Shown one piece after another: positions 5,620 through 37,736 of a DNA stretch of 64,000 nt; position 1 is the first letter of the stretch; every line of letters starts with the position of its first letter. Position numbers and translations under genes: made by a program. The notes beneath the pieces are model-generated. The model had not been told where the DNA came from, ran no database searches, and was given only the letters and a program-made list of their open reading frames with translations. Origin of the DNA: Acidobacteriota bacterium (GTDB taxonomy: Bacteria > Acidobacteriota > Terriglobia > Terriglobales > Acidobacteriaceae); NCBI GenBank assembly GCA_013289795.1, contig JABCZH010000003.1, positions 372,001 to 436,000 on the forward strand, given 5' to 3'.

Positions 5620-6474
5620 ATGGCTTGCAATCCCGAAATCCTAAAGCATGTTCCGTTGTTTGCATTGCTCGACGAAGACGAAATCGCTGTTTTGTCCGGG
5701 CAGGTGGAACTCAAGAGCTTCTCCCCACGCCAGCGCATCTACAAGATCGGCGATCCCGGCGGACGTGCCTATGTCATGGCTTCCGGCAAAGTCCGTCTGA
5801 CTACCGTGGACGAAGACCAACAAGAGGTGATCGTCGACGAACCCGGCACCGGCGAATTCTTCGGTTTCGCCTCCATGCTGGAACAATCTCCCCACCAGAC
5901 CAATGCCGTGGCCATCGAAGAGACCCGCTGCGTAGAGGTCGATCGTAACGACATCATGACCCTGCTGCAACGCAAGCCACATGCTGGAATGGACATGCTG
6001 GCCGTGCTGGGCCGCCAGTTCCATGCCGCTCAGCGCCTGGTGCGGGTGCGCGCCGCCCGCAACCCCAACCAGGTGATTGAACAGCAAGCCACCTACGGTG
6101 AGCAGGTTGCCGACGCCGTTGCCCACTTTGGAGGCTCATGGACCTTCATCATCGCCTTCCTGGTGGTTTTCGTCGTTTACAGTGCCATCAGTTCGCTCAT
6201 GGGCAAAGCTTCGTGGGATCCCTATCCTTTCATCCTGCTCAACCTGTTCCTCTCCATGCTTGCCGCTATTCAGGCCCCGGTCATCATGATGAGCCAGAAC
6301 CGTCAGGACACCAAAGACCGCGTGCGCAGCGAACTCGATTTCGACGTCAACCGCCGTGCCGCTTCTGACATTCAGGGACTCGCCCGCAAACTCAACGCCC
6401 TCGGCGACAAGATCGGCGACCTCGACGACCTGCTGCGCAGCAAGCCACCACAGACTCTTAACCCGTCGTCCTGA
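5620..6474 (+). CDS. Cyclic-nucleotide-binding domain fused to DUF1003 membrane domain
   Basis: A 284-residue two-domain protein. Residues about 8-120 form a CRP-type cyclic nucleotide-binding domain (FSPRQRIYKIGDPGGRAYVM, then GEFFGFASMLEQSPHQTNAV). Instead of a DNA-binding helix-turn-helix it continues into a DUF1003 domain, about 150-260, with two membrane helices (WTFIIAFLVVFVVYSAI and ILLNLFLSMLAAIQAPVIMM) and the DUF1003 signature MMSQNRQDTKDR plus a charged cytoplasmic tail. It is therefore a membrane protein that probably senses a nucleotide, not a transcription factor. Function of DUF1003 is unknown. It precedes the MFS transporter by 26 bases and is likely co-transcribed with it. 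Confidence 0.88.
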   Translation: MACNPEILKHVPLFALLDEDEIAVLSGQVELKSFSPRQRIYKIGDPGGRAYVMASGKVRLTTVDEDQQEVIVDEPGTGEFFGFASMLEQSPHQTNAVAIEETRCVEVDRNDIMTLLQRKPHAGMDMLAVLGRQFHAAQRLVRVRAARNPNQVIEQQATYGEQVADAVAHFGGSWTFIIAFLVVFVVYSAISSLMGKASWDPYPFILLNLFLSMLAAIQAPVIMMSQNRQDTKDRVRSELDFDVNRRAASDIQGLARKLNALGDKIGDLDDLLRSKPPQTLNPSS

Positions 6475-6500
6475 CAAATTGTTAGTCAATGGAGGAAGCT

Positions 6501-7967
6501 ATGGCGAACGCCTCACAAGCCGCGGGATCGGGTGGAACAGCGTACAGCATCTGGCGCGTGATCATGGCCTCGTCTGTCGGCACCATGATCGAGTGGTACG
6601 ACTTCTACATTTTCGGCAGCCTGACGGCGGTAATGGCGCCGAAGTTTTATCCCCCGGGGAACGACACCTTTGCCTACGTTGCCTACCTGATCACGTTTGC
6701 GGTCGGCTTTCTGGTGCGGCCTTTCGGCGCATTGTTCTTTGGCCGCATCGGCGATCTGGTCGGGCGCAAATACGCCTTTCTCGTGACTCTGTCCATCATG
6801 GGCTTTTCAACTTTTGCCATCGGCCTGATGCCGTCTTACGCGACCGCCGGTTGGTTCGCGCCCGTCGTCCTGGTTTTGATCCGCGTTCTACAGGGACTCG
6901 CCCTGGGCGGGGAATACGGCGGCGCTGCCGTTTACGTGGGCGAGCATGTCCCCGACAACAAGCGCGGTTTCTACACCAGTTTCATCCAGATCACGGCCGC
7001 CCTGGGTCTCTTCGTTTCCCTCATCGTGATTCTGGTCACGCAAAACGCCATGTCGAAGGAAGACTTCGCCGCTTATGGCTGGCGCATTCCTTTCTTGGTC
7101 TCGATCATCCTGGTGCTCATCTCGCTCTACATTCGCCTGAAGATGAAGGAGTCGCCCATATTCGCCCAACTCAAGAGCGCTGGCATGACCTCCACTCAAC
7201 CGCTCAAGGATGCCTTCACCAAGTGGGCGAATCTGAAACTCGTCTTGATTTCGCTTTTCGGAGCCACGGCAGGGCAGGGCGTCATCTGGTACACCGGGCA
7301 GTTCTATGCCCTGTTTTATATGCAGACCATTTTGAAAGTGAACGTCAAGACCGCCAACATCGTAGTCGCGATCGCCCTGCTGCTCGGGATGCCATTTTTC
7401 ACCGTAGTGGGCGCGCTCTCCGACCGCATCGGGCGCAAGAAGCTCATGATGGCGGGCTGCCTGCTCGGCGTACTCACTTACATCCCGATCTACAAAGCCA
7501 TGGAACGCGCGGCCGGCAACAACGTCGTCACCGTAAAATCCACTCGCAACAAAGTGACCGGCGCCATCGCCCTCACCGCCATGACCACCGACGCGACCGG
7601 CGCATTGGTCCCGGCCAAAGAAGCGCCAAATCCGAATCTCACCATGCTGGTCCTGCTGATTTTCGTGCAGGTGCTCTACGTGTGCCTGGTGTATGGTCCC
7701 ATCGCCGCCTATCTCATCGAGGCCTTCCCCGCGAAGATTCGCTACACTTCGCTTTCCCTGCCATATCACATCGGCAACGGTGTTTTTGGCGGATTGCTGC
7801 CCTTGATCGGCCTATCCTCCGTCGCAGCCACCGGCAACATCTATGCCGGACTCTATTACCCAATGATTGTCGCCGGCATAACGTTTGTGGTGGGAAGCCT
7901 ACTGCTGCGCGAGACCCGCGGCGTTCGCATCTGGGATGAAACCGGACGACGCCCTGCAGCCCGCTAA
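6501..7967 (+). CDS. MFS transporter, metabolite:H+ symporter type
   Basis: Twelve-helix major facilitator of 488 residues resembling the MHS group (ShiA, ProP, KgtP), which import organic acids or osmolytes with protons. Seen: MIEWYDFYIFGSL in helix 1, the first cytoplasmic loop GRIGDLVGRKYAF, and a second copy SDRIGRKKLMM between helices 8 and 9. The start was placed at the ATG at 6501 because GGAGGA (6491-6496) lies just ahead; an in-frame ATG at 6489 overlaps this ribosome site and is unlikely. A roughly 45-residue loop after helix 9 rich in Thr/Asn (VKSTRNKVTGAIALTAM) is longer than usual in E. coli members. Substrate cannot be assigned. Confidence 0.9.
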   Translation: MANASQAAGSGGTAYSIWRVIMASSVGTMIEWYDFYIFGSLTAVMAPKFYPPGNDTFAYVAYLITFAVGFLVRPFGALFFGRIGDLVGRKYAFLVTLSIMGFSTFAIGLMPSYATAGWFAPVVLVLIRVLQGLALGGEYGGAAVYVGEHVPDNKRGFYTSFIQITAALGLFVSLIVILVTQNAMSKEDFAAYGWRIPFLVSIILVLISLYIRLKMKESPIFAQLKSAGMTSTQPLKDAFTKWANLKLVLISLFGATAGQGVIWYTGQFYALFYMQTILKVNVKTANIVVAIALLLGMPFFTVVGALSDRIGRKKLMMAGCLLGVLTYIPIYKAMERAAGNNVVTVKSTRNKVTGAIALTAMTTDATGALVPAKEAPNPNLTMLVLLIFVQVLYVCLVYGPIAAYLIEAFPAKIRYTSLSLPYHIGNGVFGGLLPLIGLSSVAATGNIYAGLYYPMIVAGITFVVGSLLLRETRGVRIWDETGRRPAAR

Positions 7968-8131
7968 CGACCGCGGAGCAAGTCAGTTTTCGCCAAGATA
8001 TCGCAACCTGGTACACCTGAGGCCGTGCTGGGCGTAAAGACGTCTTTGCACTGCCTCGTCTTGCAAGCCATTGTTTATAAAGCGCATAGCAAGGTCGTCT
8101 AAGAAACGGAGGAAGAGTCAAATAAAAGCAC

Positions 8132-8137
8132 TTGACA
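8132..8137 (+). promoter_or_regulatory. -35 box (TTGACA) of the GntR-ABC operon
   Basis: A perfect TTGACA stands 64 bases ahead of the first gene of the operon. The matching -10 must lie inside the palindromic operator immediately downstream (TATAGT at 8151-8156 is closest in sequence but only 13 bases away; TTAACT at 8156-8161 is 18 bases away). A bound regulator would therefore block polymerase. Confidence 0.6.
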
Positions 8138-8143
8138 TTTATT

Positions 8144-8171
8144 CTAGTGTTATAGTTAACTACAACACTAG
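8144..8171. promoter_or_regulatory. 28-bp palindromic operator, YtrA/GntR type
   Basis: Arms CTAGTGTT (8144-8151) and AACACTAG (8164-8171) flank TAGTTAACTA; 13 of 14 base pairs are symmetrical, the exception being positions 8152/8163. It sits directly behind a TTGACA box and ahead of an operon that encodes a YtrA-type GntR repressor, a family known to bind long palindromes in the promoter of its own ABC operon. Autoregulation is inferred from this position. Confidence 0.75.
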
Positions 8172-8195
8172 CTGTACCAAAGGAGATTACCCAAC

Positions 8196-8774
8196 ATGAA
8201 ATCACGCATCGCAATTTCGGTTCTATTCGTTTTGATCGCCGCCACCGCTTTCCCCGCGGACACGGCGACCACCCAGCCTGACACGCAAAAATCCATCGTG
8301 GCTCCTGCGCCGTCCGAGGCGGAGAAGTCCTTCACAACCATCAAGAGCCTGGCGGGAGAGTGGGAAGGCCCAGCCACCGTGGCGGAGATGCCGGAGATGT
8401 CAGGCGGCAAGATGCACATCTCGCTGCGTGTCACCTCGAGGGGACACCTGCTCGTGCACGAGCTTCAGGAAGCCGGAACGCCGTTTGATGCGACCAAGTA
8501 CGACCATCCGGTCACAATGGTTTACCTGGATGGAGACCAGCTCACGCTGATTCACTATTGCGATGCCGGGAACCGGCCGCGCATGACCGGCAAGCTATCG
8601 CCCGACGGCAAGACGGTCGAGTTCGAGCTCAAGGACATCAGCGGCGACCCATCGGTTCACATGCACCACTCGGCGTTCACCTTTATCGACACCAATCATC
8701 ACACCGAGGATTGGACTTTCATGATGAACGATAAGCTGATCCACGCGCACTTCGACCTGACGCGGAAGAATTGA
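8196..8774 (+). CDS. Secreted protein of unknown function, lipocalin-like (DUF1579-like) layout
   Basis: A 192-residue protein with a clear signal peptide (KSRIAISVLFVLIAATAFPA, cleavage near residue 21). The mature part has an LAGEWEGPATV motif, then alternating beta strands (MHISLRVTSRGHLLVHELQE; MVYLDGDQLTLIHYCDAGNR) that resemble the small beta-barrel proteins annotated as DUF1579 or similar; the family call is tentative. AGGAGA (8181-8186) provides a strong ribosome site. It is the first gene behind the palindromic operator, so it should be controlled with the GntR-ABC genes. A role in the periplasm or outer surface linked to the ABC system is inferred only from position. Confidence 0.75.
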   Translation: MKSRIAISVLFVLIAATAFPADTATTQPDTQKSIVAPAPSEAEKSFTTIKSLAGEWEGPATVAEMPEMSGGKMHISLRVTSRGHLLVHELQEAGTPFDATKYDHPVTMVYLDGDQLTLIHYCDAGNRPRMTGKLSPDGKTVEFELKDISGDPSVHMHHSAFTFIDTNHHTEDWTFMMNDKLIHAHFDLTRKN

Positions 8775-8812
8775 CGGGGGCGTATTCGTGTAAGGACTAT
8801 CTGGAAAACTTT

Positions 8813-9208
8813 ATGGACCGTGAGTGGAACGACAGTCAGCCGATTTACCGCCAGCTTCGCGACCGCGTCGTCGCCATGATCCTCGACGGCGTGCTCAAAG
8901 AAGGCGATCCGCTACCATCCGTGCGGGTGGTCGCGGCCGAATATCGGGTCAATCCGCTCACGGTCTTGAAGGGCTATCAGCAACTGGTGGACGAACAGTT
9001 GGTCGAAAGCAAAAGAGGTCGGGGCATGTTCATCAATGCGGGCGCGCGCAATCTGCTGCTGCAGGGCGAACGCCAGAAGTTTCTTGCCGAACAATGGCCT
9101 GTTGTCTACGCAACCATTCAGCGGCTTGGCCTGAAGGCGGAAGAACTGCTGAATGGTGACGCACCCCGCCGGTCGACGAAGTCTGAACAGGAGAAACCCA
9201 AGCCATGA
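8813..9208 (+). CDS. GntR-family transcriptional regulator, YtrA subfamily
   Basis: A 131-residue repressor: winged helix at about residues 9-75 (QPIYRQLRDRVVAMILDG, then PSVRVVAAEYRVNPLTVLKG and the wing SKRGRGMFI) followed by only about 55 residues. This short C-terminal part defines the YtrA subfamily, whose members repress ABC transporter operons. The ATG at 8813 gives the canonical start just before the winged helix; a TTG at 8771 would overlap the previous gene's stop. The stop overlaps the ATPase start (ATGA), so regulator and transporter are made together. It probably binds the palindrome at 8144-8171. Confidence 0.93.
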   Translation: MDREWNDSQPIYRQLRDRVVAMILDGVLKEGDPLPSVRVVAAEYRVNPLTVLKGYQQLVDEQLVESKRGRGMFINAGARNLLLQGERQKFLAEQWPVVYATIQRLGLKAEELLNGDAPRRSTKSEQEKPKP

Positions 9209-10095
9209 CAGTCATCGAAGCACGCGGTCTGCGCAAATCGTTCGGCACCACAGTCGCGCTCGACGGCGTCGATCTGCGAGTCGCAGAGGGCCGCATTCTC
9301 GGGCTCATCGGTCCCAACGGCGCAGGCAAGACCACAGCGCTCGACGCGATCCTCGGCCTCACCCAGTACCAGGGAGAACTGAGGGTGCTCGGGCGCGATC
9401 CATGGAACGAGCGCGATCAGCTCATGCGCGATGTCTGCTTCATCGCCGACGTCGCTGTCCTGCCGCGCTGGATGCAGGTCTTGCAGGTGCTCGACTACGT
9501 CGCCGGCGTGCATCCGCGATTCGACCGTGCCAAGGCGGAAGCTTTCCTTGCAAAGACCGACATCAAGCGAACTCGCAAGATCAGGGAATTATCGAAAGGC
9601 ATGGTGACCCAGCTTCACCTCGCGCTGGTCATGGCCATTGACGCGAGATTGCTGGTGCTGGATGAGCCGACGATTGGCCTAGACATCCTCTATCGCAAGC
9701 AGTTCTACGATTCCCTGCTGAACGACTACTTCGATCGCAACCGCACCATCGTGGTGACCACGCATCAGGTGGAAGACGTGCAGAACGTCATCACCGATCT
9801 CATGTTCATCAACCGCGGCCGCATCGTACTCACTTGCACGATGGAGGAATTCGAATCGCGCTATCTGGAAGTGACGGTACATCCCGAGCACGTGGCAGCG
9901 GCACGAGCGCTCAAGCCGATTCACGAACGCCAGGCGCTTGGCCGCAGCATCCTGATTTTCGATCGTGCCGTAGATCACAAACTCGATCGCCAGCAACTCA
10001 CCGCACTCGGCGACGTCCGCACTCCCAGCATCGCTGACCTGTTCGTTGCCCTCATGGGCAACCACGCCGGCGAGACCCAAGGAGCAGCTAGATGA
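9205..10095 (+). CDS. ABC transporter ATP-binding protein (YtrB-like)
   Basis: A 296-residue ATPase of the CcmA/ABC-2 type. Walker A is GPNGAGKTT (about residue 38), the signature is the variant LSKGM (about residue 130), Walker B is LLVLDEPT, and the switch histidine is in VVTTHQVEDV. The N-terminal 215 residues are the nucleotide-binding domain; the C-terminal 80 residues are unrecognised. Its start overlaps the GntR stop and its stop overlaps the permease start (ATGA at both ends). Partner: the permease at 10092. Cargo unknown; YtrA-type systems respond to cell-envelope stress in other bacteria. Confidence 0.93.
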   Translation: MTVIEARGLRKSFGTTVALDGVDLRVAEGRILGLIGPNGAGKTTALDAILGLTQYQGELRVLGRDPWNERDQLMRDVCFIADVAVLPRWMQVLQVLDYVAGVHPRFDRAKAEAFLAKTDIKRTRKIRELSKGMVTQLHLALVMAIDARLLVLDEPTIGLDILYRKQFYDSLLNDYFDRNRTIVVTTHQVEDVQNVITDLMFINRGRIVLTCTMEEFESRYLEVTVHPEHVAAARALKPIHERQALGRSILIFDRAVDHKLDRQQLTALGDVRTPSIADLFVALMGNHAGETQGAAR

Positions 10096-30463: not shown

Positions 30464-31744
30464 TTACCGCTTGGGCAGGATTTCTCCTATGCGGCGGATT
30501 TGGGCGCCTACGCCGCGTAGTTTCTCTTCGATGTTTTCGTAGCCGCGGTCGATGTGGTAAACGCGGTCGATGATGGTTTCGCCTTCGGCGACTAAGGCGG
30601 CCAGGACCAGGGACGCGGAGGCGCGTAAGTCAGATGCTTGTACGGCGGCGCCGCTTAGTGGAGTCTTGCCGCGTACGATGGCGCGGCTGCCTTCGATCTT
30701 GATGTTGGCTCCCATGCGCAGGAGTTCCTGAGCGTGCATGAAGCGGTTCTCGAAGATATTCTCGGTAATGACCGATGTGCCTTCGGCTTGGGTGGCGAGG
30801 GCCATGTATTGCGCCTGCACGTCGGTCGGGAAGCCGGGATATTCTTCAGTGACCATGTCGGCGGCTTTGAGCGGGTTGTCGCCCATGACGCGGACGGATT
30901 GCTTGCCGGGCTTGGTCTTGACGCCGGTGGCTTCGAGGGTTTGCAAAAGGGCTCCGAGATGAGCGGGCTCGCAGCCGGAGACGTTGAGGTCTCCTCCAGT
31001 GAGTGCGCCGGCGATGATGAAGGTGGCGGCTTCGATGCGGTCGGGAATGATGCGGTGCTTGGCTCCGTGAAGCTTGGCGACACCCTTGATGCGGATCGTG
31101 GAAGTGCCAGCGCCTTCGATCTGTGCGCCCATTTTGTTGAGCAGGTCGGCTAGGTCGGCGACTTCGGGCTCGCGAGCGCAATTCTGCATCACGGTTTCGC
31201 CGTCGGCTAGAGCAGCGGCCATGAGCAGGTCTTCGGTGCCGGTGACGGTGATCTTGTCGAAAATGATTTCGGCGCCTTTGAGTCGCTTGGCGCTGGCTTC
31301 TACGTATCCGTGTTCCTGGCGAATGGTGGCGCCGAGACGTTCGAGCCCTTTGATGTGCAGGTCGATGGGGCGAGCGCCGATGGCGCAGCCGCCGGGCAGG
31401 GAAACGCGGGCAGTGCCGCAACGCGCGACCAGCGGACCGAGGACCAGAGTTGAGGCGCGCATGGTTTTGACCAGTTCGTAGGACGCTTCTGGCGATGCAA
31501 GATTTCGGCAGCTGATGGTGGTGCGGTGCTGGGCGCGTCCGTAACCGAGTTCGACTTCAGCTCCCATGGCGGCGAGCAGCTTGCGCGTGGTTTCGATGTC
31601 GCGCACCTGCGGAATGCTTTCGAGAATCACCGGCTCTTCGGTGAGCAATGCAGCAGCCATGGCGGGCAGGGCGGCGTTCTTGGCTCCGCTGACGTGAATG
31701 GTTCCCAGCAGCGGGTTGCCGCCGCGAATTACAAATTTGTCCAT
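30464..31744 (-). CDS. murA: UDP-N-acetylglucosamine 1-carboxyvinyltransferase
   Basis: First committed step of peptidoglycan synthesis: transfers enolpyruvate from PEP to UDP-GlcNAc; cytoplasmic. 426 residues from the ATG at 31744 (family about 420). Seen: MDKFVIRGGNPLLGTIHVSG, AKNAALPAMAAALL, the catalytic loop LPGGCAIGARPIDLH with the fosfomycin-target cysteine present, and VTEEYPGFPTDVQAQYMAL. A longer N-terminus from 31789 is possible but lacks conservation. The + strand here is G-rich, opposite to genes left of 24 kb. Followed at 129 bases upstream by murQ on the same strand. Confidence 0.97.
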   Translation of the reverse strand: MDKFVIRGGNPLLGTIHVSGAKNAALPAMAAALLTEEPVILESIPQVRDIETTRKLLAAMGAEVELGYGRAQHRTTISCRNLASPEASYELVKTMRASTLVLGPLVARCGTARVSLPGGCAIGARPIDLHIKGLERLGATIRQEHGYVEASAKRLKGAEIIFDKITVTGTEDLLMAAALADGETVMQNCAREPEVADLADLLNKMGAQIEGAGTSTIRIKGVAKLHGAKHRIIPDRIEAATFIIAGALTGGDLNVSGCEPAHLGALLQTLEATGVKTKPGKQSVRVMGDNPLKAADMVTEEYPGFPTDVQAQYMALATQAEGTSVITENIFENRFMHAQELLRMGANIKIEGSRAIVRGKTPLSGAAVQASDLRASASLVLAALVAEGETIIDRVYHIDRGYENIEEKLRGVGAQIRRIGEILPKR

Positions 31745-31873
31745 AGCGAGATGGTTCTCTACTTCAACTCGTACTGGCGCCAGACCCATGGCATTTCCAA
31801 TCTGTGGCGTTCGACTATTTTAGCGGTTATCGAGGGAAGCGTGGGTTAATTGGAAGGGCACCGTCTTCCTCGC

Positions 31874-32803
31874 CTACAAACTGCGGGCGGCGGCGATGGC
31901 GGCGCGAACGTTGTTGTTGGCGGTGCGCAAGGCGCTAGCAGCGTTGGCGCGGCCGACCTCGGCGTGGAACATGACGAGAGCCGCGGGGACACTGCCGGCG
32001 GCTCGCAGCATCTTTTCTGCAGCCGGACGACCAACGCCCGTGGCTTTCTGAAGGATTGTGATCCCGCGTTCCACCAGTTTTTCGTTCTTCAGGTGAACGT
32101 TGACCATGAGGTTGCCGTAAACGTAGCCCAGCCGGGTCATGGCGCCGGTGGAAAGCATGTTGAGCACCATTTTTTGGGTGGTGCCAGCTTTCATGCGGCT
32201 GGATCCAGCGATCACTTCGGGGCCGACTTCGGTGACGATTGCGAGGTGTGCAGCTTTGGCGAGTTGCGAGCCGCGATTGCAAGTGACGGCGATGGTCTTC
32301 GCGCCGCGCCGCCGGGCATACGCGACAGCGGCGATGGTGAATGGAGTGCGTCCGCTGGCGGCAATACCGACGACTACGTCATTCTTGCCCGGCTTCTTTC
32401 TGGCAATTTCGCGCTCGCCGAGTTTGCGGGAATCTTCGTTGCCTTCGACTGCTGATCCGAGCGCTTTGATTCCCCCGGCGATGACATATTGCACGGTCTT
32501 GGGACTAGTGTTGAAGGTTGGAGGACACTCGGCGGCGTCGAGGGCGGCGATGCGGCCGCTGGTGCCCGCGCCCACGTAGATGAGGCGTCCGCCGTGCTTC
32601 AAGGCGGCTGCGATCAGATCGATGGCGCCGGCGATTTGTGGCAAGGCACGCTTCACCGCGGCGGCGACTTTGGCATCTTCCGCGTTGATGACTCGGGCGA
32701 TCTCGATAGAACTCTTCAGGTCGAGGTTTCTCGACACAGGATTTAGTTGCTCGGTCGATAGTCGGCTCACGGATGCCGAGGTGCGCGTTTGCTTGCGCTT
32801 CAA
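31874..32803 (-). CDS. murQ: N-acetylmuramic acid 6-phosphate etherase
   Basis: Cleaves the lactyl ether of MurNAc-6-phosphate to GlcNAc-6-phosphate and D-lactate in cell-wall recycling; cytoplasmic SIS-domain enzyme. 309 residues (family about 300). Seen: LSTEQLNPVSRNLD, IYVGAGTSGRIAALDAAECP with the catalytic glutamate, GNEDSRKLGEREI, and SSRMKAGTTQKMVLNMLSTG. The start is a TTG at 32803, with GGAG 9 bases ahead, overlapping the stop of the upstream hydrolase gene (TTGA). No MurP-type PTS gene is nearby, so MurNAc must be phosphorylated by another enzyme. Confidence 0.96.
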   Translation of the reverse strand: MKRKQTRTSASVSRLSTEQLNPVSRNLDLKSSIEIARVINAEDAKVAAAVKRALPQIAGAIDLIAAALKHGGRLIYVGAGTSGRIAALDAAECPPTFNTSPKTVQYVIAGGIKALGSAVEGNEDSRKLGEREIARKKPGKNDVVVGIAASGRTPFTIAAVAYARRRGAKTIAVTCNRGSQLAKAAHLAIVTEVGPEVIAGSSRMKAGTTQKMVLNMLSTGAMTRLGYVYGNLMVNVHLKNEKLVERGITILQKATGVGRPAAEKMLRAAGSVPAALVMFHAEVGRANAASALRTANNNVRAAIAAARSL

Positions 32804-33939: not shown

Positions 33940-34146
33940 AGTATTTGGGTGGTCGATGTTCGGGTTATAGCAAAGATTAGAGGGGCGGTAAAGTTACGGG
34001 GAGGATGCGGGTGATCGACGTCGTCGCCCTGTAGCACAAACGGTACCCCTTGCTTGAGTTTGTTGAGCAAGCGCGGTGGGGTTGTGTAGAGTCAAAGTAT
34101 CCGTCTAATTAGAAACAATTCGCGGCCCTGCCGGCAGGTTCTCGCG

Positions 34147-36504
34147 ATGCTGGCGATGATGCTTGCGCTTCCACACGCAGCGGCGTCCACGCGGCCAGGA
34201 AGAGCGGCCGCCTCGACTCCCCGGCTTGGCTCGCTTGATTCCATTGTTGAAGACGCTATCCAGGATGGCCAGGTTCCCGGAGCGGTCTTGCTGGTCTGGC
34301 ATGACGGGCAGGTTGTGTATCGCAAGGCGTTCGGCAATCGCTCGCTGGAGCCGCGGCGCGAAGCCATGACTGTGGACACGGCGTTTGATATCGCTTCGCT
34401 CACCAAGGTTGTGGCGACCTCGGTGGCGGTGATGCAACTGGTGCAGAAGGGCGACATCCGCGTCAACGAGCCGGTGGCAAAATATTTGCCTGAGTTTGGT
34501 CAGAATGGCAAAGAAGATGTCACCATTCGGCAACTGCTCACGCATTTCTCGGGATTGCCCGAAGACCTCGACTTGGCACAGCCTTGGCAGGGACGCGAGG
34601 CGGCGCTGCAAATGGCGTATGCGGAGAAGCCGATTGACCCGCCGGGCTCGCGGTTTCTGTACAGCGACGTCAACTTCATCGTGCTCGGTGCGCTGGTGGA
34701 GCGGGTTTCTGGAATGTCGCTGGACCAGTATTGCCGGCAGCATATCTTTTCAGCTTTGGGGATGTCCCAGACCCGGTTTCTGCCGCCGCCGTCATGGTTG
34801 ATGAAGGTTGCTCCCACCCAGTTTGATGAACAGAACCACATGCTGCGCGGAATCGTTCACGATCCTACTGCGCGCCGGATGGGCGGAGTGGCCGGACACG
34901 CGGGGGTGTTCTCGACGGCGGACGATCTTTCAAAGTTTGCCCAGTTTCTGCTCAACGGCGGCAGTGTGTTGTCTCCGTTGATGATTGAGAAAATGACCAC
35001 TCCGCAACAGCCGCCAACGGCACAGGTGTTGCGCGGACTTGGCTGGGACATCGATTCGCCTTTCTCCAGCAATCGCGGCGACCTCCTGCCGGTGGGAAGT
35101 TTCGGACACACGGGGTTCACTGGGACTTCAATGTGGATTGATCCCACTACCCGCACCTTCATCATCCTGCTGACGAATGCGGTGCATCCGCGAGGGAAGG
35201 GAACTGCGGTGGCGCTGCGCGCGAAAGTTGCGACGGCAGTGGCGGCGGAGTTGTCACTCAGCGTCACAGAGACAGACGAGCTGCACTGGAAGAGCATTAC
35301 TGGATACAACGAGGCGCAAACCGCCGCGCGGCGGGTTGCAGTGCGAAACGGGATGGTCCGCACCGGAATTGACGTGCTTGAGTCGCATGATTTCGAGCAG
35401 ATGCGAGCAAAGGAAGGGAAGAAGAGAATCGGTTTGCTGACTAACCAGACCGGAGTCGATTCTCGGGGACGCCGCACTGTCGATGTTCTGGCCCAGGCGC
35501 CGGGGATTTCTCTGAATGCTATTTTCAGCCCCGAGCATGGAGTGACGGGAACGCTCGACACCACCGACATTGCAAATTCAAAAGACGCGGTCACGGGGGT
35601 CCCGGTTTACAGCGTGTACGGGGGGGCGGACGCGGCGCGGCGGCCGTCGCCTGAGATTCTGAAAACCCTCGACGCGGTTGTCGTCGATATTCAGGACGCA
35701 GGCGCGCGCTTCTACACTTACGAGACCACGCTCGGATATTTCCTGGAAGCGGCGGTGAAAGCGGGGATCGAGATTGTCGTTCTCGACCGGCCTAACCCCA
35801 TCACGGGGTCATTTGTGCAGGGGCCGTTGACCGATCCCGGCAACGAAAGCTTTACCAACTACTTTGCGCTTCCGGTGCGTCATGGCATGACCATGGGCGA
35901 ACTGGCCAAGCTGTTCAACAGCGAGCGCGGCATCAATGCGCGTCTGACCGTGATCCCCATGGAAGGGTGGATGCGTGGCGACTGGTACGATTCGACCGGG
36001 CTGGCGTGGGTCAATCCCTCGCCCAACCTGCGGAACCTGACGGAAGCCGCGTTGTATCCCGGCGTGGCGCTGGTCGAGGGAACGAATGTTTCGGTCGGCA
36101 GAGGGACGGACACTCCGTTCGAGTTGCTGGGAGCTCCTTGGATCAAGGCGCGCGAGCTGGCGCAATACTTGAACGCTCGCAACATCTCCGGTGTGCGTTT
36201 CGTGCCGGCCAGCTTCACCCCCAGCGCCAGCAATTACTCAGGCCAGAACTGCGAAGGAGTTAACATTCTATTGACCGACCGCAATGCCGTTGACGCTCCG
36301 GAGTTGGGGGTAGAACTGGCTTCGGCCTTGCATAAACTCTATCCGGAGCCATTCCATATGGAGCGGATGATGGAACTGGTGGTCAACCAGTCGGTGTATG
36401 ACGGGATTTCGGCGGGGGAGGATCCGCGGCGAATCGCGGCAGATTGGCAGGAGCGCCTGGACAAATTTCAACAAATGAGACAGAAGTATCTAATCTACAA
36501 GTGA
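34147..36504 (+). CDS. Secreted fusion: beta-lactamase-fold (AmiE-like) domain plus DUF1343/NamZ exo-muramidase
   Basis: A 785-residue two-domain protein. Residues about 30-375: beta-lactamase fold with SxxK at Ser84-Lys87 (FDIASLTKVVATS), YSDVNFIVLG, and GSFGHTGFTGTSMWIDPTT. Residues about 405-785: DUF1343, the NamZ family of exo-beta-N-acetylmuramidases, with RIGLLTNQTGVDSRGRRT, AIFSPEHGVTG, DIQDAGARFYTYETTLGYFL and VLDRPNPITG. In B. subtilis AmiE and NamZ are separate genes near murQ; here they are fused and face murQ. The ATG gives a truncated-looking signal peptide (AMMLALPHAAAS); the frame stays open upstream and encodes RNNSRPCRQVLAM ahead of it, so a non-ATG start near 34099-34120 is possible. 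Confidence 0.9.
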   Translation: MLAMMLALPHAAASTRPGRAAASTPRLGSLDSIVEDAIQDGQVPGAVLLVWHDGQVVYRKAFGNRSLEPRREAMTVDTAFDIASLTKVVATSVAVMQLVQKGDIRVNEPVAKYLPEFGQNGKEDVTIRQLLTHFSGLPEDLDLAQPWQGREAALQMAYAEKPIDPPGSRFLYSDVNFIVLGALVERVSGMSLDQYCRQHIFSALGMSQTRFLPPPSWLMKVAPTQFDEQNHMLRGIVHDPTARRMGGVAGHAGVFSTADDLSKFAQFLLNGGSVLSPLMIEKMTTPQQPPTAQVLRGLGWDIDSPFSSNRGDLLPVGSFGHTGFTGTSMWIDPTTRTFIILLTNAVHPRGKGTAVALRAKVATAVAAELSLSVTETDELHWKSITGYNEAQTAARRVAVRNGMVRTGIDVLESHDFEQMRAKEGKKRIGLLTNQTGVDSRGRRTVDVLAQAPGISLNAIFSPEHGVTGTLDTTDIANSKDAVTGVPVYSVYGGADAARRPSPEILKTLDAVVVDIQDAGARFYTYETTLGYFLEAAVKAGIEIVVLDRPNPITGSFVQGPLTDPGNESFTNYFALPVRHGMTMGELAKLFNSERGINARLTVIPMEGWMRGDWYDSTGLAWVNPSPNLRNLTEAALYPGVALVEGTNVSVGRGTDTPFELLGAPWIKARELAQYLNARNISGVRFVPASFTPSASNYSGQNCEGVNILLTDRNAVDAPELGVELASALHKLYPEPFHMERMMELVVNQSVYDGISAGEDPRRIAADWQERLDKFQQMRQKYLIYK

Positions 36505-36817: not shown

Positions 36818-37702
36818 CTATTTCGCTGCCCGCTGCCGTATGGCTTCCTCGGTGGCCTGGGCTTGCTGACGTACCCGGTCCGGGATGTCGGGCAGGTCAC
36901 GATCGTACGGCCGGATGGCGGCAACGTCTTCCTGTTGGCCAATCAGGTAAAGCGCACGCAACGCCTCCCAGACTTGTTCGGTACTGGGGTCGACAACAGC
37001 AATCTTGTCGCCGGCTTTCACCGCCTGTCCGGTGGGAGCGGATAGCTCGCGCAGACGTCCGCTGATGGGCGAACGAACCTCGACCGTCTGATTCTCCGCC
37101 TTTAGCTTGGCGATCATTCCGCCCTGGTGAATCGCGGTGCCCACGGTGCTGGTGTCGATCACGGTCCCGGGCTGGGTGGCGCTTACATCAGCGGGCCGCA
37201 GCAGTTCGATGATCTGGGGGCGTCCGCTGGCATCGCCGAAGCGCACCAGTGACAGGGCCGCGTTCCCGCGCACGGTGAGTGATGGATCACCGAGCATCTT
37301 GAGCAAAGCTTCATGAAAACCTGCGCCGGAGGTGTCCTGCCCCATCACCCAGGCGTCGGTGTTGCGCACTTCTTCCACGGGATGGTTCGCCAGGCGCACG
37401 GCATCGGGATACCACTGCTTTATGTTGACATCGCCGCGGCTCATGCGCTCGCCCAATTGCACCAGCGCATGCTGAATGTGGCGGGGGTGCTTTTCGTCCT
37501 GGAGGTACTCGGCGATTTGCTTATCGGAGAGTTGGCGTCCGAACCAGGTGTTCCACCAGAACAGAAACGGCATGAGGACGATGAGCCACCCGGTGGCAAA
37601 GAACAGCAGACGATTGCGGGTGGACATGCGGGGGCGGGGCTTCGAAGCGGGAGCTTCGTCAGTCGAAGCAGATTGGATTTCGGGGTTGGGGGAAGCTGAC
37701 AT
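36818..37702 (-). CDS. Membrane-anchored HEAT-repeat protein with embedded biotinyl/lipoyl-like domain
   Basis: About 294 residues. N-terminal tail, a membrane helix (LLFFATGWLIVLMPFLFWW, about 33-52), then HEAT-type helices (HIQHALVQLGERMSRGD; HPVEEVRNTDAWVMG; MLGDPSLTVRGNAALSLVRF). At about 200-250 a hammerhead sequence appears: QTVEVRSPISGRLRELSAPT then GQAVKAGDKIAVV, the barrel-sandwich pattern of lipoyl and adaptor domains, without the modified lysine motif. Helices resume after it (WEALRALYLIGQQEDVAAIR). It ends the respiratory-gene strand block, so it may help assemble or scaffold the cytochrome complexes. Start ATG 37702 or GTG 37711; neither has a clear ribosome site. Confidence 0.72.
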   Translation of the reverse strand: MSASPNPEIQSASTDEAPASKPRPRMSTRNRLLFFATGWLIVLMPFLFWWNTWFGRQLSDKQIAEYLQDEKHPRHIQHALVQLGERMSRGDVNIKQWYPDAVRLANHPVEEVRNTDAWVMGQDTSGAGFHEALLKMLGDPSLTVRGNAALSLVRFGDASGRPQIIELLRPADVSATQPGTVIDTSTVGTAIHQGGMIAKLKAENQTVEVRSPISGRLRELSAPTGQAVKAGDKIAVVDPSTEQVWEALRALYLIGQQEDVAAIRPYDRDLPDIPDRVRQQAQATEEAIRQRAAK

Positions 37703-37736
37703 GGGAGCCACTGGAAATATAGCAGAGCCGGCGGTG

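Follow-up and report, generated by a model that had tools for sequence, protein, structure and literature searches.

The 64,000-nt stretch analysed here (the window) belongs to a 4.67 Mb genome in 33 contigs, whose relatives are Terriglobia (Acidobacteriota). It contains a frame with an ATG start, 785 codons and zero internal stops (Table 1). In its product, Pfam detected Beta-lactamase PF00144 (E 4e-78), NamZ_N PF07075 (E 3e-77) and NamZ_C PF20732 (E 6e-50), all far over the cut-off. The open frame and the three domains in order confirm what the sequence-only reading had proposed, that an AmiE-like and a NamZ domain share one chain. The genome holds one NamZ copy and eight PF00144 matches. 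Pfam and TIGR00274 matches likewise bore out the claim that the fusion gene stands divergent from murQ, a second beta-lactamase-fold gene and murA. The window MurQ scores 345 bits against TIGR00274 (cut-off 302), which places it in that family; its gene starts with TTG and overlaps the upstream S12 gene by 4 nt. The second S12 protein has no obvious signal peptide. The order murA-murQ-S12 with the divergent fusion is complete in seven relatives (L002, L003, L004, L007, L010, L011, L019) and partly visible in three others (L005, L006, L012). Downstream of the fusion, a gene at 36818-37711 (-) encodes HEAT repeats and a biotinyl/lipoyl-like domain, an odd pairing.

Table 1. Features of the window and of related loci. 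Plain coordinates refer to the window; L numbers denote other analysed loci.
Feature	Position	Strand	Evidence or remark
murA-type EPSP-synthase-family protein	30464..31789	-	PF00275; syntenic in relatives
murQ, MurNAc-6-phosphate etherase	31874..32803	-	TIGR00274 equivalog
Second S12 protein, 379 aa	32800..33939	-	PF00144, fusion-type motifs; syntenic in relatives
Predicted sigma70-like promoter	34063..34092	+	-35 TTGAGC 34063-34068, 18-nt spacer, -10 TAGAGT 34087-34092; conserved
AmiE-like S12 / NamZ (GH171) fusion protein, 785 aa	34147..36504	+	single frame, Pfam, colinear in relatives
Hydrophobic N-terminus MLAMMLALPHAAAS	34147..34188	+	sequence; likely h/c-region of signal peptide, true start maybe upstream
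S12 / PF00144 domain, residues 30-354	34234..35208	+	Pfam; motifs S84-L-T-K87, Y172-S-D, G-H321-T-G-F-T-G-T
NamZ_N, residues 428-631	35428..36039	+	Pfam; cleft motifs PEHG 462-465, DIQDAG 514-519, R548, E585
NamZ_C, residues 636-784	36052..36498	+	Pfam; SVGRGT 649-654
Window-genome symporter	contig 7, C7:209.2-210.6 kb (L089 4670-6130)	-	PF00474; TIGR00813
BadF-type kinase	L089 6285-7202	+	divergent from symporter, next gene on contig 7
Amino-acid permease	L089 3254-4621; L118 8810-10186; L121 9729-11132; L120 6423-7811	-; -; -; +	directly after symporter gene

A contig scan found 21 Terriglobia loci, and 20 of them (L002-L021) carry a colinear fusion with 57-79% identity to the window protein; the remaining locus (L022) is truncated by a contig edge. 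The fusion was also found in about 50 further Terriglobia genomes and in four plasmid records (Burkholderia/Cupriavidus), the latter with about 41-44% identity to the window fusion. The colinear recurrence in 20 contigs at such identity means that the fusion is neither two adjacent frames nor a chance event. An annotation artefact, against which the sequence-only reading had warned, and a frameshift are ruled out by the open frame and this recurrence; together with the further genomes and the plasmid records, they leave an assembly error or two misread neighbouring frames next to no probability. On the plasmids, which are conjugative or mobilizable (L061, L062), the fusion gene comes after genes for a polysaccharide deacetylase and a putative glycoside hydrolase and has no murQ next to it. 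A putative glycoside hydrolase adjoins DUF1343 in some haloarchaea too. One frame of ~1195 aa (L078, genome G121) was read as a 5' extension of the frame, as Pfam finds no domain upstream of PF00144.

Across 53 aligned fusions, S84, K87 and Y172 of the S12 domain are invariant, and H321-T-G is kept save for H-L-G in two plasmid sequences only. The NamZ cleft motifs are near-invariant in the same set (PEHG 462-465, DIQDxG 514-519, R548, E585, SPN 625-627, SVGRGT 649-654).

The NamZ half of the window protein comprises full-length NamZ_N and NamZ_C with the conserved cleft residues, as in NamZ/GH171 sequences. Sequence comparison pairs it with the DUF1343 crystal structures 4k05 and 4jja, and its predicted fold gives a TM score of 0.90 against 4k05 by target length. 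The structure model of the whole protein (pTM 0.54), built on an alignment with two plasmid-record rows left out, is usable for the folds and not for domain orientation. The domain is predicted to be an exo-beta-N-acetylmuramidase. NamZ-family (DUF1343) genes are also found in haloarchaea, organisms without peptidoglycan, so the family may act on other substrates, and the fusion might work on another glycan with its NamZ domain cutting a sugar other than MurNAc. We regard this as improbable, as the window domain closely matches Bacteroides DUF1343/NamZ with the cleft residues retained and the murQ neighbourhood is conserved. The haloarchaeal genes themselves are clustered: on haloarchaeal plasmids (Halorussus halophilus, L063 5236-13227; matches H6-H12), AnmK, serine hydrolase (S12), DUF1343 and nagZ annotations lie close by, possibly for scavenging of bacterial cell wall or for another substrate. 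A further NamZ-kinase association beyond Acidobacteriota was seen on a Paenibacillus guangzhouensis plasmid (L115, 1-8102), where an ABC sugar transporter, AnmK, a PIG-L deacetylase, DUF1343 and a BadF-type kinase follow in one run.

The boxes typical of the S12 fold, SxxK (S84/K87), Y172-S-D and H321-T-G, are intact in the window protein. The motif set S-x-T-K, Y-S-D and G-H-T-G-x-T-G-T is common with E. coli YfeW, whose gene sits in the murQ-murP-yfeW operon. The same motifs, with small changes, occur in the neighbouring S12 protein of the window and in haloarchaeal, Parabacteroides and GH3-fused S12 proteins, whereas the other PF00144 paralogues of the window genome that aligned do not have the set. 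A Subdoligranulum (Clostridia) plasmid has NagZ, NamZ and MurQ genes that diverge from the gene of an S12 relative. A class C beta-lactamase, and with it a resistance gene, was rejected (63 bits against a cut-off of 415; the box reads HTG, not KTG). The nearest curated NCBIfam model is the PBP4B equivalog, matched at 171 bits and so below its cut-off of 385, followed by models including AmpH and esterases, every one under its cut-off. Foldseek with the predicted S12 fold returned EstG and family VIII esterases as the best matches and AmpC-type enzymes next. These matches, and the fact that the fold hosts all such activities, would fit a DD-carboxypeptidase or endopeptidase, a D-aminopeptidase or an esterase (e.g., for de-O-acetylation) that readies glycan ends for NamZ in an otherwise identical pathway. 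We consider this unlikely, given the YfeW-type motif set, the S12 relatives adjoining murQ, NagZ and NamZ genes in other phyla, and the peptide remover that a NamZ working on bare MurNAc would require. An AmiE-type S12 domain is therefore favoured. The motifs and the gene linkage favour this part of the earlier "AmiE-like" label; its amidase activity stays a prediction, as esterases and DD-peptidases share the S12 fold.

The protein had also been called secreted. A hydrophobic N-terminus (MLAMMLALPHAAAS) is present and lacks a basic n-region. It is likely the h/c-region of a signal peptide whose real start may sit upstream; no ATG, GTG or TTG was found upstream of 34147 within the open frame of the fusion. 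Because the start codon is uncertain, the signal peptide is uncertain as well, and the protein is best described as probably exported. The predicted promoter is kept in several relatives. A column of ATC/ATT/ATG is conserved at 34099-34101, upstream of the first ATG of the fusion, and one relative (L007) has zero ATG, GTG or TTG ahead of the domain.

A GH3-S12 fusion is encoded divergently from AmiE-NamZ in some of the relatives (L079, L080, L112/L119). These NagZ-AmiE-like proteins have the order GH3-GH3_C-S12 (L079 2803-5778 (-); L080 3720-6629 (-); L119 15333-18425 (+)), and in L079 and L080 their genes are followed by murQ.

The stronger functional evidence, which lay outside the view of the sequence-only reading, comes from the link to a transporter and a kinase. 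The window genome encodes a symporter that matches PF00474 and scores above the cut-off of TIGR00813, and hence belongs to the sodium:solute symporter family. Among 121 Terriglobia genomes, 93 carry both NamZ and this first symporter type, 6 NamZ alone, 2 the symporter alone and 20 neither, so that the symporter is found in 93 of the 99 NamZ carriers (Fisher p 1e-15, kinship ignored). The two are fused in 12 of the 93 and lie within 12 kb in 35 (together 47/93); they are farther apart or on other contigs in 46. The window genome has symporter and kinase on a different contig from the fusion. The best solved relative of the BadF-type kinase is the MurNAc/GlcNAc kinase 8zo3 (E 2e-32). Its best NCBIfam model is NagK, below cut-off, so GlcNAc may be the kinase substrate. 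In genome G049 the kinase gene and a symporter-S12-NamZ fusion gene are immediate divergent neighbours, and genes for GH20 and amidohydrolase proteins lie upstream; on a Streptomyces plasmid a related symporter gene is followed by AnmK. The amino-acid permease behind the symporter may import peptide-derived products.

A class-wide search of Terriglobia revealed open frames near 1400 aa that contain the fusion. Five of them (L074, L075, L076, L077, L082) showed the Pfam order SSF (Na+:solute symporter), PF00144, NamZ_N and NamZ_C, and the symporter part is also present in L083, L094-L099 and L101. Among the genomes sampled, 12 from the window's family and a 13th from another family (G298, L077) thus have an N-terminal symporter on the S12-NamZ protein. 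The fused symporter domains are about 59-62% identical to the stand-alone symporter of the window genome; that of L077 is only about 23% identical to the other fused ones and represents a different subfamily. At 61% identity, the nearest relative found for it is encoded unfused in G319 (L120), by a gene that adjoins AmiE-NamZ divergently, with murQ following. Because L077 uses a different subfamily, the symporter-enzyme fusion probably arose twice independently. The tree requires two changes for the triple-fusion layout, with the caveat of long branches. Some forks of this quick tree are open and long branches come together in it (L077 and the plasmid fusions), and it was relied on only for the grouping of the 12 triple fusions of the window's family (f1) and for G139 as their sister. 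G139 (L116) has a symporter gene (5977-7473) and, separated from it by 3 nt and in frame with it, an AmiE-NamZ gene (7477-9930). This pair resembles a pre-fusion state, in which the loss of one stop codon would yield the triple fusion. In one genome of the triple-fusion genus (L100, G195 C73), the frame is broken in two, with 1018 aa that include the symporter and 503 aa of NamZ, by either a frameshift or an assembly error.

Symporter and S12 domain are joined by a loop that contains K/R and by a last hydrophobic segment, which often ends like a retained signal peptide. This hydropathy pattern suggests that the enzyme domains are placed outside the cytoplasm. The membrane side was derived from the hydropathy count only, and the AlphaFold model of symporter plus S12 (L074, pLDDT 46) was not used.

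Taken together, we propose that the window protein is an exported enzyme that processes peptidoglycan by two activities and feeds a symporter, a kinase and MurQ (probability about 0.6). Outside the cytoplasm, the AmiE-type domain would act on glycans or muropeptides and strip the stem peptide from their non-reducing terminal MurNAc, and the NamZ domain would then free the bare MurNAc. The sugar would be imported by the symporter, separate here and fused in relatives, phosphorylated to MurNAc-6P by the BadF-type kinase and turned into GlcNAc-6P by MurQ. Where a GH3-S12 protein is the divergent partner, it would take off the alternating GlcNAc. In part of the Acidobacteriaceae-like Terriglobia, we give even odds to importer, amidase and exo-muramidase forming one ~1400-residue membrane protein, which would take a glycan end externally, strip the peptide, cut MurNAc and pass it straight to its own symporter domain. 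Adjacent genes would have given rise to such a protein on two or more occasions, with two symporter subfamilies, and the window protein would be the form without the transporter.

The source of the peptidoglycan is a separate question. The symporter, amino-acid permease, GH20 hexosaminidase and amidohydrolase around the fusion in relatives look catabolic, mobile plasmids bear the fusion, and the window genome encodes, apart from it, the classic NagZ-AnmK pair for self-recycling. This suggests feeding on foreign peptidoglycan (soil necromass, prey, competitors) instead of recycling of the own wall. We put this at slightly short of even, as the conserved neighbourhood includes the biosynthetic murA, and the fusion is single-copy and near-universal in the class, like a housekeeping recycling gene. 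Foreign-wall scavenging and own-wall recycling are not mutually exclusive.

In B. subtilis, the exo-amidase AmiE, the exo-GlcNAcase NagZ and the exo-muramidase NamZ, the founding member of GH171, are encoded by ybbE-ybbD-ybbC near murQ, and the importer is the PTS protein MurP. The three-enzyme logic is alike, whereas separate proteins and a PTS are replaced here by one amidase-muramidase chain and a likely Na+:solute symporter. To our knowledge, few organisms are known to take up free MurNAc by an importer other than a PTS. E. coli YfeW (PBP4B) has the S12 motifs and the murQ linkage in common with the fusion; it is a stand-alone protein without NamZ, and the window S12 domain falls below the PBP4B cut-off. 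Tannerella forsythia uses a MurNAc importer of the sodium-symporter superfamily, a MurNAc kinase and MurQ (murTKQ), and the same organism has the exo-muramidases NamZ1 and NamZ2 (PMC5790795, PMC10465942). These components correspond to those proposed here, but they are separate proteins, and neither an S12-NamZ nor a transporter-enzyme fusion is described there (PMC5790795, PMC10465942). The two-domain architecture is not new, because a 2008 survey lists DDPept-DUF1343 once (YP_439122.1), at a time when DUF1343 had no function (PMC2605481). The domain order of this protein and its Burkholderia/Cupriavidus plasmid relatives is identical to ours, and one Burkholderia copy is already annotated as a NamZ-domain protein. 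The same survey reports GH3-DDPept forms in two species, Bacteroidetes/Salinibacter (PMC2605481). Like those of L079 and L080, they join a peptidoglycan exo-glycosidase to the same type of S12 domain; unlike in AmiE-NamZ, whose divergent partner they are in L079 and L080, the glycosidase belongs to GH3 and precedes the S12 domain. What is novel is the fusion of transporter and enzyme: no description of a symporter-NamZ fusion was found in the open literature searched, which is weak as evidence of absence.

The gene fusions single out one symporter subfamily as the likely MurNAc importer, partnered by a particular S12 subfamily and a particular kinase, across a phylum that is dominant in soil. 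From them one would expect an external route for harvesting peptidoglycan, with amidase, exo-muramidase, symporter, kinase and MurQ, in addition to the classic NagZ-AnmK pathway, which is relevant to how soil bacteria recycle microbial necromass. The triple fusions suggest a one-piece machine for harvesting the bacterial cell wall and offer a ready test case for direct hand-over of the substrate from hydrolase to transporter within a single chain.
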